Made by a program: the position numbers and the translations under genes
Assembly: GCF_001423525.1 (NCBI RefSeq)
Contig: NZ_LMOI01000018.1
Location: 569,435 to 633,434, forward strand
Direction of reading: 5' to 3'
Length of the DNA stretch: 64,000 nucleotides
Source: Arthrobacter sp. Leaf137
GTDB taxonomy: Bacteria > Actinomycetota > Actinomycetes > Actinomycetales > Micrococcaceae
The notes under the pieces: generated by a model
Database searches by the model: none
Told to the model about the DNA's origin: nothing
What the model saw: the letters and a program-made list of their open reading frames with translations, nothing else
Part shown: positions 10,524 through 19,171 of the stretch, in pieces
Layout of the letters: every line of letters begins with the position of its first letter
Numbering within the stretch: the stretch's first letter is position 1

Positions 10524-13004
10524 CTAGGTAGGAATGATCTTGAAAAGGAACTTCGTCCGGACCATCGCCCACAGGAGCCCCAGGACCACGGCGTAGGCCG
10601 CCGTGTTGAGCAGCACATTCTCCTGCTGCAGGGCGGGGATGTTGGCCACCACAGCGATCAGCACCACGTGCATGATGAACACGTAGAGGGTGGCGCGCCC
10701 CAGGGGGATCAGGAACCAGCCCAACACCCGCTCGATGGGTTTCCAGTACGCAGTCAGCAGCGCGTAGGCAGCCACTACCAGGATCAGCACGTTGAGCAGC
10801 CTCCCCGGCGCCAGGTAGGTGCGGGCGAAGAGTGCGTCGTACATGACCCGGTACGCCGTGTCCGGAATAAGGGCGAGGCGGACGTCGAAGCCGTTGGCCA
10901 GGTAGGGGTTGCCCCAGGACAGGAACGCGAACAGCAGTGCGACGGCGGTGCATGCCACTACCAGCCAGGTCCTGGCAGACAGCCACGCCACAATGGTCCG
11001 CCGGTGGTAGCCGGCCACGAGGCCGATGACGAACAGCACCTGCCAGACAAGCAGAGGGAACGAATCCTCGAACTGCGACGGCAAGAGCCGGAAGCGTGTG
11101 ATGGAGCCGACGGCGTAGAGCCCAAGCGTTGCGGCCAGCACCCAGACGGCCTTCCCACGGCTGAGCGCGGCGAGGACCACCGGGCTGACCAGCAGCAGCA
11201 CCACGTACAGGCCCATGACGTTGAACTGCCAGGGGCCGAACTGCAGCAGGAGGACGGCGGGCAGCACCTGCGGCGGCACCGGGAACTGGAAGAGGGATTC
11301 CATCCCCGCATAGAGGTCGTAGGTACGGCCGGCCCCCTGGTGCCCGGCCCCTCCGGTCCCCTGGTCCACGAAGGTGGTGAGGGCCTCGGTCCGGAAAATG
11401 GGAAGCAAGGACATCAGGAAGACGCCAACCAGGACCACCAGCGCCGTCAGGTACAGCTTGCCGGCGCGGCGGGATGTCAGGTCCAGCACGGTGCCAAAAT
11501 CCTCGCGGACGCGGGGCCCGTAGACCATGCCCACCACCAGCCCGGAGAACAACACGAACAGTTCGGCGCCGCTGACGAAGCCCACTGCCTCCTGGGTCAG
11601 CAGCTGGAACAGCGATGTCATGCCCAGGTGGTTGACCACCACGAAGACAATGGCCATGCCGCGGAGCAGGTCCACCCGGGAATCCCGTTGGGAGGGGTCG
11701 CCGTAGCCCCAGGCCGTGGCAGCGTTAACCCTGCGGGGAATCTGCCACAGTGCCACCAACAGGAGGATCAGCGCCGCTCCCACAGTCCAGGCCGCGGCGC
11801 CCGTCAGTGTGTTGGCCCGTTCATAGCTGCCGCCGGCGCCAACCTCCGTGACGGGTCCGGTCACCATTGACGAATCCTTCAGCCGGGCGTGGGCAGCCGC
11901 GGCTACGGTGGAGTTGCCGGTCAGCAACCAGCTGATGCTCGCTACACCCGTGTCCCGGGTACTGGTCCTTTCGTCCCACACCACCATGGCGGTCTTCGGG
12001 AAGTTGGTCGACGTGGCGGCCCCCACCACCTGGTCGAACCAGCCGGCCTTGACGTCCACCTCGGAGGCGCCGCCGGCTGCGGGGCTGTAGAAGGCAGCGG
12101 TCTGCAGCATGAACGGCTTGCTGCGGCCGGCTGAATAGTCCCTGTAGAAGTTTTCCCCGCCGGAGGCGGTGAGCATCTCCTGGAGCTCGCCTGCCCGCGG
12201 CACCGTGTTCACCGCCGCCCCGCCGGCCGTATCGTCGTGGAAAGCGGTCAGGCCCACCCAGTCCACGGCGTCATCGCCGGGATAGTAGGGTTCGTAGGCG
12301 CTGTCCGCCCCGTCCCACGCTCCGTCATCGTTGGTGTCCAGCAAAGCGAAGCCCTCACTGCCGGGAGCGGGCGCATTCCGGCTCCGGGCGAAGGGATAAT
12401 CCTTGCCAAGGTACGGCTCCCACACCATCAGCGGGCCGCCGCCGGACATCTTGAAGGCGGCGGACACCGCACGGAAGGCGTTGCGGTACGCACCGGGCTG
12501 CTGGCCCCATTCCACCCAGCTGGCATTCATGTCCGGGGCAAAACGGATCAGCACCTGCCCGGTGAAACCCGATGTCAGCCGCCGCACTTCCGCGGCAAAG
12601 GACGCTGCGGCGGCGTCATCAATCTGGTCGAGCGGCACAGTGGGCTTCACAGTGAACATCGCATGCGAACCCTGGAGTGACGCCTGCTCCAGGAAGCCCC
12701 GGAGGTTGTTCTGCTCCGAGGGGCGGTACGGCAGGGCGAGGTCGTGGCCGTAGGCGGCGGGAGATGCTCCAAGCCGTTCGGCGAAACCGGCAGCGGAATC
12801 TTCACCCCACTCCAGCACCGCGCCCAGCAGGGGTTTTCCCTCGTCCGGGTTAAGGTCGGCGGCGCTGGCGGCGCCTGCGGGCAGCACCACGGCACACGCT
12901 GCCAGAAGCACAACGGCAAGGAATGTCCACACCCTCGACGCGCCCGCGCGGAACGATTGGACCGAAGGTTTGGTGCGTCGTCGCGCGGATGTACGCATGC
13001 TCAT
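10524..13004 (-). CDS. OpgC-type membrane acyltransferase with degenerate GH26-like ectodomain
   Basis: An 826-residue protein. A signal/anchor helix (residues 24-49) leads to an extracellular domain of about 330 residues resembling glycoside hydrolase family 26: QVLIRFAPDMNASWVEWGQQPGAY at 150-172 corresponds to the R-x-x-H-E-x-N-x-x-W acid/base motif, but His and Glu are Pro157 and Asp158. The KP-strand that should carry the nucleophile Glu (KPFMLQTAAF, 296-305) has none. LLDTNDDGAWDG (221-232) is a calcium-loop-like insertion. After a transmembrane helix (404-421), residues 440-826 form an OpgC-like multi-spanning acyltransferase domain beginning DLLRGMAIVFVVVNHLG. OpgC proteins transfer acyl groups, such as succinyl, to extracytoplasmic glucans. 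The ectodomain probably binds rather than cuts glycan (inference). GGGGGG precedes the start. Confidence 0.82.
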   Translation of the reverse strand: MSMRTSARRRTKPSVQSFRAGASRVWTFLAVVLLAACAVVLPAGAASAADLNPDEGKPLLGAVLEWGEDSAAGFAERLGASPAAYGHDLALPYRPSEQNNLRGFLEQASLQGSHAMFTVKPTVPLDQIDDAAAASFAAEVRRLTSGFTGQVLIRFAPDMNASWVEWGQQPGAYRNAFRAVSAAFKMSGGGPLMVWEPYLGKDYPFARSRNAPAPGSEGFALLDTNDDGAWDGADSAYEPYYPGDDAVDWVGLTAFHDDTAGGAAVNTVPRAGELQEMLTASGGENFYRDYSAGRSKPFMLQTAAFYSPAAGGASEVDVKAGWFDQVVGAATSTNFPKTAMVVWDERTSTRDTGVASISWLLTGNSTVAAAAHARLKDSSMVTGPVTEVGAGGSYERANTLTGAAAWTVGAALILLLVALWQIPRRVNAATAWGYGDPSQRDSRVDLLRGMAIVFVVVNHLGMTSLFQLLTQEAVGFVSGAELFVLFSGLVVGMVYGPRVREDFGTVLDLTSRRAGKLYLTALVVLVGVFLMSLLPIFRTEALTTFVDQGTGGAGHQGAGRTYDLYAGMESLFQFPVPPQVLPAVLLLQFGPWQFNVMGLYVVLLLVSPVVLAALSRGKAVWVLAATLGLYAVGSITRFRLLPSQFEDSFPLLVWQVLFVIGLVAGYHRRTIVAWLSARTWLVVACTAVALLFAFLSWGNPYLANGFDVRLALIPDTAYRVMYDALFARTYLAPGRLLNVLILVVAAYALLTAYWKPIERVLGWFLIPLGRATLYVFIMHVVLIAVVANIPALQQENVLLNTAAYAVVLGLLWAMVRTKFLFKIIPT

Positions 13005-18154: not shown

Positions 18155-18322
18155 TCATCTATGAGTTTTTGATGGCGAATTAGGCAGGTTACAGCTCCAT
18201 CAAGGTCCATCTTTATCTTTTCTATGCGATAGCGCTGGGCTGCGGCGTTGCGCCTTGTCCTCTCCGTAATACCGCGGGAAACTGGAACATACGTTTCTTC
18301 AAGCAATAAAACGGAGCCTGAC

Positions 18323-19171
18323 ATGCCCCGGACTCGAGCCCACCTGCCAGTGTTCAGGCTGGCATGGCTGCTGGTGGCAGCAGTACTTTTCACCTGCGCC
18401 GGGCCCGTGTGGGCTGATCCAACTGATCCCCCGGCAGTGCCGCAAGGTGGAGGCGGAAGCCAGCCCCTCCTCGGCAACGACGTTTCGTGGCCGCAGTGCG
18501 GCGCCGAGCTGCCGCGAGACCAGGCGTTCGCCATCGTGGGCGTCAATAACGGTTTGGCCAACAACACCAACCCTTGCCTGCAGGAACAGCTCGAATGGGC
18601 CGAATCGTCATCCGGGGCAGTCGACTCGCAGCCCAAGGCGCAGCTCTACATCAATACTGCCAATCCCGGGCGGGCCGGTTCCTGGTGGCCGGTCAGCGAC
18701 GAATACCCCACCGGCTCGAAGGTGCACAACCCGTACGGTTCCTGCAAGGCCGGGGACTACGGCACGGCCTGCGCTTACATGTACGGCTACGCCAAGGCCT
18801 TTGACGCAGCCTACGTCCGTGGAGTGACCGACCCCGCGGACTACGTCTGGTGGCTGGATGTGGAAACCGAAAACACCTGGTCCAGCAGCAAGGACGCCAA
18901 CCGCACCGTCCTGGAAGGCATGACGGATTTCTTCCACAGCATCGATGCAGCAGGTGTGGGTATCTACTCCACCGGCCAGCAGTGGCACAGGATCGTGGGG
19001 AACGTCAGCAGTTCCAGCAACCTCTACCCCTTGCCCAGCTGGCTGGCGGGATCCCGCAATGCAGCTTCAGCAGCCACCGCGTGTTCAAAGTCCCCGCTGA
19101 CGGGCGGCGGGAAAGTGGTGCTGACGCAGTTCATCCACGCCGGGCTGGATTACAACCACGCCTGCAGCTAG
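18323..19171 (+). CDS. Secreted protein with GH25/DUF1906-like TIM-barrel features
   Basis: A 282-residue exported protein. The signal peptide (FRLAWLLVAAVLFTCAGPVWA, cleavage after about residue 31) is followed by GNDVSWPQCG, a strand opening seen in actinobacterial GH25-like or glycoside-hydrolase-like secreted proteins. Other barrel motifs are FAIVGVNNGLANN, LYINTANPG, YVWWLDVETENTW (acidic D-x-E at a strand end) and VGIYSTGQQWHRIVG. At least four Cys may form two disulfides. An enzymatic role on cell-wall or extracellular glycans is plausible but unproven. ATG 18323 has GGAG 7 nt upstream. It is transcribed divergently from the HTH-MurA gene. Confidence 0.78.
   Translation: MPRTRAHLPVFRLAWLLVAAVLFTCAGPVWADPTDPPAVPQGGGGSQPLLGNDVSWPQCGAELPRDQAFAIVGVNNGLANNTNPCLQEQLEWAESSSGAVDSQPKAQLYINTANPGRAGSWWPVSDEYPTGSKVHNPYGSCKAGDYGTACAYMYGYAKAFDAAYVRGVTDPADYVWWLDVETENTWSSSKDANRTVLEGMTDFFHSIDAAGVGIYSTGQQWHRIVGNVSSSSNLYPLPSWLAGSRNAASAATACSKSPLTGGGKVVLTQFIHAGLDYNHACS

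Follow-up and report, generated by a model that had tools for sequence, protein, structure and literature searches.

Gene organization and domain layout

The window, by which we mean the whole 64 000-nucleotide stretch of DNA analysed here, carries on its minus strand a gene for a protein in which a GH26-like ectodomain is followed by an OpgC-type membrane acyltransferase. The features of the gene are listed below.

10524..13004, minus strand: pseudo-GH26/OpgC fusion, whole gene, 826 amino acids (open reading frame and translation)
12861..13004, minus strand: residues 1–48, signal peptide or N-terminal membrane segment (hydrophobic at about 20–51; model helix 19–39)
11850..12848, minus strand: residues 53–385, GH26-fold ectodomain (AF2 model and fold searches)
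12525..12545, minus strand: residues 154–160, RFAPDMN, with Asp158 at the acid/base position and Pro157 in place of His (alignment with RFAHEMN of non-fused relatives)
12303..12338, minus strand: residues 223–234, DxNxDGxxxxxD-like loop in the barrel (Asp223, Asn225, Asp227 and Asp234 invariant, n = 42 sequences)
12090..12119, minus strand: residues 296–305, KPFMLQTAAF, with Gln301 at the nucleophile position (alignment with KPVAIPETAxL of non-fused relatives)
11970..11978, minus strand: residues 343–345, WDE, with Glu345 invariant (Glu in 65/65 and 9/9 fusions)
11733..11807, minus strand: residues 400–424, membrane helix joining the ectodomain to OpgC (hydropathy 398–426; model helix 402–425)
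10542..11687, minus strand: residues 440–821, OpgC_C acyltransferase domain (PF10129, E 1.2e-67)
11628..11672, minus strand: residues 445–459, Asp445-x-x-Arg448 and His459 in the first OpgC helix (invariant, n = 42 sequences)

A first-pass annotation of this DNA had given the coordinates, the strand and both barrel motifs, all of which agree exactly with the open reading frame and its translation. Its assignment of an OpgC-type acyltransferase fused to a GH26-like ectodomain is likewise borne out, for the membrane half by the Pfam search (228.9 bits against a cut-off of 21.4, covering positions 1–356 of the 358 in the profile) and for the N-terminal half by the AF2 model and fold searches. The DxxR motif, given in part of a published account as characteristic of the OpgC_C acyltransferase superfamily (PMC12423673), is present as Asp445 and Arg448; these residues and the nearby His459, which may take part in the acyltransferase activity, are invariant in 42 sequences. 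The order of the segments (N-terminal hydrophobic stretch, ectodomain, helix, OpgC_C) suggests that the ectodomain lies outside the cell and that OpgC starts inside, which would be the usual topology of AT3 proteins as set out in passages of PMC9833829. The DxNxDGxxxxxD-like loop may bind calcium.

Neither Pfam nor NCBIfam gave a match to an SGNH domain, and the sequence beyond OpgC_C is short; the NCBIfam search of the fusion protein returned nothing above the cut-off. The same architecture was located at 41 loci in a search of genome contigs. The window itself is from the Micrococcaceae, and the nearest named locus is that of Pseudarthrobacter chlorophenolicus (92%). Elsewhere in the window, at 18248–19171, there is a frame for a secreted-looking protein (LLGNDVSWPQCG) with no Pfam match.

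Structure of the ectodomain

The AF2 model of residues 50–385, based on 42 sequences, has a pLDDT of 90.2 and a pTM of 0.91. Structure prediction and superposition on GH26 mannanases had been suggested by the first-pass annotation as a check, and a GH26 (beta/alpha)8 barrel was recovered by AF2, Foldseek and VIA. The first Foldseek match is the GH26 lichenase 2bv9 (E 4.1e-12). In VIA a GH26 xylanase aligns over 280 residues with Z 24.6 (rmsd 3.0), lichenases reach Z 24.2 and mannanases score about 22, and the first rows for enzymes outside GH26 appear at Z of about 19; one row, at Z 23.3, has the title of a transporter complex and the length of a lichenase. On the strength of the model, then, the ectodomain is a GH26 barrel.

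Sequence searches were less sensitive to this relationship. The Pfam GH26 match to the ectodomain is below threshold (E 0.27), phmmer with the whole protein found nothing among solved structures up to E 10, and an ectodomain profile gave chance-level matches alone against the same structures, GH26 chains being included at E ≥ 1.2. The full-length model is of moderate quality (pLDDT 73, pTM 0.61), and in its VIA comparison the GH26 domain filled the matches, so that the comparison bears on the ectodomain only. Lichenases stand first among the structural matches, yet xylanases tie with them, so the model hints faintly at a (1,3;1,4)-beta-glucan as the polymer.

Catalytic residues in the fusions and their relatives

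We class the ectodomain as GH26-like and not as a GH26 enzyme because Pro157–Asp158 and Gln301 occupy the alignment columns in which most non-fused relatives have His–Glu and the Glu nucleophile. The acid/base position of the window protein retains a carboxylate in the form of Asp. His–Glu and Glu are found in 21 of 25 non-fused rows (14 of 16, and seven of nine further ones), with RFAHEMN and ..ETA at the motif sites of relatives on plasmids, in the window's own genome (C1:389165–390151 and the C1:471996 region) and elsewhere. Three such non-fused GH26 genes with an intact motif (L044, L045 and L046) lie on conjugative-typed plasmids of Arthrobacter and Paenarthrobacter.

Seven fusion rows identical in sequence to another locus were dropped before counting. 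Also removed were L001 (the window's copy), L002, which duplicates L077, L046, which nearly duplicates L044, and the row with the OpgC part of L072. At least one Glu is absent in 64 of the 65 distinct Micrococcaceae fusions that remained; both are absent in 45 and both are kept in one. Written in the order His/acid-base/nucleophile, the residues of these 65 are P-D-Q (41), P-E-Q (nine), P-Q-E (eight), P-D-H and P-D-R (two each) and P-D-E, P-A-E and P-E-E (one each). Nine further fusions come from family f45, in another order of the class, and read P-E-E in eight cases and P-E-R in one. The change of His to Pro before the acid/base position is common to all 74 fusions. The first-pass statement that the catalytic Glu residues are missing thus holds for the window, by alignment, and does not extend to the architecture as a whole. 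Nor is the loss of catalytic residues confined to fusions, an idea ruled out by four non-fused rows with an altered motif: L088 (P-E/V), L097 (P-E/Q), L136 (P-E/S) and L142 (P-D/E).

These counts bear on the possibility that the ectodomain is still an enzyme, a hydrolase or transglycosylase in which Asp158 or Asp257 would pair with Glu345 to trim or cross-link the glycan. Glu345 is invariant in the 74 fusions, Asp257 is present in 57 of the 65 Micrococcaceae rows, position 158 is acidic in 45 PD rows and in the window, and the f45 fusions mostly keep both Glu residues. However, Glu345 is also Glu in ten of 15 non-fused rows and is therefore not a new catalytic residue, Asp257 is replaced by Phe in all nine f45 fusions, and the nucleophile position holds Gln, His or Arg in 54 of the 65 Micrococcaceae rows. 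We regard such an enzyme as rather unlikely. Since both Glu residues are kept in eight of the nine f45 fusions and in one of the 65 from the Micrococcaceae, these proteins may act as hydrolases or transglycosylases.

Selection and the history of residue loss

The barrel is under purifying selection, with dN/dS of 0.096–0.250 for the ectodomain and 0.038–0.197 for OpgC in 13 close pairs. Trp163, Trp166, Trp195, Tyr237 and Trp249 are invariant in 42 sequences and may line a glycan groove.

In a quick tree, with SH-aLRT support only, the catalytic columns left out and a warning that several long branches meet, the fused ectodomains form one group (SH-aLRT 99) together with one non-fused pseudo-GH26. 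The fewest changes on this tree are two for the His, four for the first Glu and five for the second, non-fused rows being counted too. Loss of Glu appears to have come after the fusion, and more than once, because eight of nine f45 fusions retain both residues whereas 64 of 65 from the Micrococcaceae lack at least one. The simplest story suggested by the sequences would be one fusion accompanied by the His-to-Pro change, followed by multiple separate losses of Glu.

Association with a cellulose synthase-like gene

In the window's clade the fusion gene is flanked by ordinary metabolic genes, and its context is therefore hidden there. Other lineages are more informative. The stretch examined was usually about 5–6 kb on each side of the fusion (seven stretches are shorter than 14 kb), and it contains a GT2 gene at 14 of the 65 Micrococcaceae loci and none at 51, the window included. 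In the Micrococcaceae clade L069–L076 the GT2 gene immediately precedes the fusion, in the same orientation, in eight of eight cases, and at L056 the order on one strand is fusion, GT2, active-motif GH26. All nine f45 fusions have GT2 within 5 kb; at eight of them one strand carries, in order, a SpoIIE-type phosphatase, GT2, STAS, an RsbW-like kinase and, last, the fusion. At the ninth, L136, the fusion has an in-frame stop and the operon ends with a pseudo-GH26 without OpgC. Neighbouring genes were called with a codon-position filter and are approximate; each gene call that the argument relies on was checked with BLAST or Pfam.

The window's genome has the GT2 gene too, at C18:354287–356227, which is 223.7 kb from the fusion and within a SpoIIE–GT2–STAS–RsbW cluster at C18:353.2–357.0 kb. 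The GT2 product is 74% identical to the L056 protein. Among solved structures it is closest to cellulose synthases of bacteria (BcsA, E 3.1e-69), the match stopping before the PilZ part. The L056 protein matches PF03552 (E 4.2e-24), and Pfam gave no PilZ domain in it. From this gene content, synthesis is probably under partner-switch control.

Two further arrangements were seen. At L106 (8785–10764) a BcsA-like GT2 has about 150 extra residues, at about 245–396, between two stretches that match cellulose synthase. In a second pairing, found at L107, L108 and L110 in the window's genus and at L109 in family f8, a non-fused GH26 with an intact motif adjoins a different GT2, about 49% identical to the first, and a frame of about 145–150 amino acids lies in between at L107, L108 and L110.

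Distribution among genomes

Of 295 Micrococcaceae-family genomes, 41 have a PF10129 match, with 31 strong places in 29 genomes. Thirty of these are in frame with the ectodomain and one, L072, is divided over two frames; none of the 31 is a stand-alone OpgC. The divided gene (L072, 5451–7849) either reflects an error in sequencing or is truly broken. GT2, at a threshold of E ≤ 1e-100, is present in 63 of the 295 genomes: in all 29 that carry the fusion and in 34 of the 266 that do not (Fisher 6.6e-23, not corrected for descent). Within the window's genus the figures are 12 of 12 fusion genomes against four of 12 others (p 0.0013), and at the level of genera all five with the fusion are among the 11 of 32 that have GT2 (p 0.0023). 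As 34 of the 63 GT2 genomes have no fusion, decoration of the polymer would be optional.

At the level of the order (347 genomes), only the window's family has full-length matches. Of 346 genomes sampled from the phylum, six gave a PF10129 match at E ≤ 1e-10, two of them as fusions and four in open frames of 400–442 amino acids; the fusion is therefore a sub-lineage trait.

The pattern bears on a second alternative, that the ectodomain recognizes or docks on some other envelope polymer (teichoic acid, lipomannan or a peptidoglycan-linked glycan) to be decorated by OpgC, the link to GT2 being incidental to a shared life style. The position of the gene in the window's clade, apart from GT2 and amid ordinary metabolic genes, and the frequency of GT2 without the fusion would fit such a reading. 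Against this, GT2 operons are seen at eight of nine and eight of eight loci in two separate lineages, and co-occurrence is complete in the 29 fusion genomes. We consider it unlikely.

Micrococcus has a succinylated lipomannan, and we considered the fusion as its missing succinyltransferase. This was set aside, as no strong PF10129 match occurs in genomes smaller than 3.2 Mb among the 295 of the Micrococcaceae family. We found no link to lipomannan succinylation in open-licence papers, and the relevant review passages are silent on it.

Pseudo-GH26 proteins without OpgC

Pseudo-GH26 proteins without OpgC were found at L136 (2115–3155, in a 647-amino-acid frame), at L088/L111 (about 6780–7907 in L111, in a 702-amino-acid frame) and at L097 (496-amino-acid frame). 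Those of L136, L088 and L097 have a C-terminal hydrophobic segment in the place of OpgC, as judged by computed hydropathy for L088 and L097 and by eye for L136. Two of the three (L136 and L111) adjoin the same GT2 cluster. The presence of such an anchored barrel beside GT2 is predicted by the idea that the dead domain serves the product of the synthase, and it supports a role there for which acylation is not needed. The genome of L136 also has, at L140 (8308–9474), an OpgC-like domain (46%) without any match to the ectodomain.

The same proteins could be taken as favouring a third alternative, in which the ectodomain serves the synthase/acyltransferase complex as a structural chaperone or scaffold and binds protein rather than glycan. 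Pseudoenzymes often turn into scaffolds. The invariance of the groove aromatics and of the motif surroundings in 42 sequences argues against this and is what glycan contact would give, although it is not proof. We judge a scaffold very unlikely.

Proposed function

We think it probable that the fusion is a membrane enzyme that acylates a beta-glycan outside the cell: GT2 would make the chain, the pseudo-GH26 barrel would hold it and OpgC would acylate it. The dead domain probably holds a newly made polymer, because relatives of the fusion adjoin a cellulose synthase-like gene. We infer the following sequence of events. A BcsA-like GT2 synthase, encoded elsewhere in the window's genome, would polymerize and extrude the chain. 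The secreted barrel, anchored beside the OpgC pore, would grip or guide the chain, uncut, in what was once its substrate groove. Next, OpgC would move an acyl group, most likely succinyl, from a CoA thioester across the membrane onto the held chain, and the SpoIIE/STAS/RsbW partner switch would probably govern synthesis in place of the usual c-di-GMP-responsive PilZ domain.

The first-pass proposal of a two-part machine for decorating polysaccharide fits this scheme, and the genomic link to GT2 supplies a basis which that proposal did not have. Its lead towards mannan is not favoured, because lichenases come first in Foldseek and the synthase linked to the fusion is like cellulose synthase; mannanases also score below lichenases and xylanases in VIA (about 22 against about 24).

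More tentatively, and at somewhat less than even odds, the history can be cast as that of a synthase-coupled polymer clamp: an endo-glycanase of a beta-glycan operon may have been fused to an acyltransferase in two actinobacterial lineages and then, on several independent occasions, have lost the residues that cut, so turning from a cutter into a holder for acylation. On this view the polymer would form a matrix of acylated beta-glucan, controlled by the partner switch.

Comparison with known systems

The OpgC/MdoC glucan succinyltransferases share the PF10129 membrane domain. Plasmid-borne opgC genes of Pantoea and others are 32–35% identical, and the matches are confined to the membrane half of the fusion (48–49% of the query). 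OpgC/MdoC act on the periplasmic glucan of Gram-negative bacteria, whereas the fusion here belongs to an actinobacterial GT2 context. With the GH26 glycosidases (lichenase CtLic26, xylanases and mannanases) the fold is shared, but here the RxxHE motif and the nucleophile Glu are replaced.

Bacterial cellulose synthase systems, such as those with BcsZ and Wss, include an accessory glycosidase and acylation. They share with the present case a BcsA-like synthase and associated proteins of glycosidase fold and acyltransferase type; they differ in that here binding and acylation would reside in one polypeptide, the GT2 is without a PilZ match and partner-switch genes are in the operon. In alginate acetylation by AlgX with AlgI/AlgJ a glycan-binding CBM part presents the polymer to the acylation machine. 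The working would be comparable, although the proteins are unrelated and a CBM stands where there is a dead glycosidase here.

The nearest known plan is that of the AT3–SGNH proteins OafB and OatA, described in passages of PMC9558356 and PMC9833829 as membrane acyltransferases of ten helices to which an extracytoplasmic domain is attached via an extra helix. As far as those passages go, the two plans share an extracytoplasmic domain that is joined by an extra helix and, in the present case probably, acts with the acyltransferase on a surface glycan. The fused domain of AT3–SGNH is, however, C-terminal and a catalytic SGNH domain, whereas here it is an N-terminal GH26 barrel that lacks its catalytic pair, with OpgC_C as the membrane part. 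Fusion partners of acyltransferases that are described in the relevant parts of three papers (PMC9558356, PMC9833829, PMC12423673) comprise SGNH, racemase, NRF and others, with no glycosidase among them. In the open-licence literature we found no paper in which 'OpgC' and 'GH26' occur together.

Implications

How a membrane acyltransferase finds its polymer is treated, in part of a review (PMC9558356), as an open question for stand-alone and fused enzymes alike. A dead glycosidase joined to an acyltransferase and encoded together with a cellulose-like synthase would answer it, in a form that is directly testable. If our reading is true, the fusion would also provide acylated beta-glucans. For the study of how an enzyme turns into a binder, the stepwise disappearance of catalytic residues offers a natural series. 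Should the polymer clamp prove correct, the non-fused H-E/E proteins, the fused P-E/E, P-E/Q, P-Q/E and P-D/Q forms and the anchored pseudo-GH26 proteins without OpgC would represent intermediates of that conversion.
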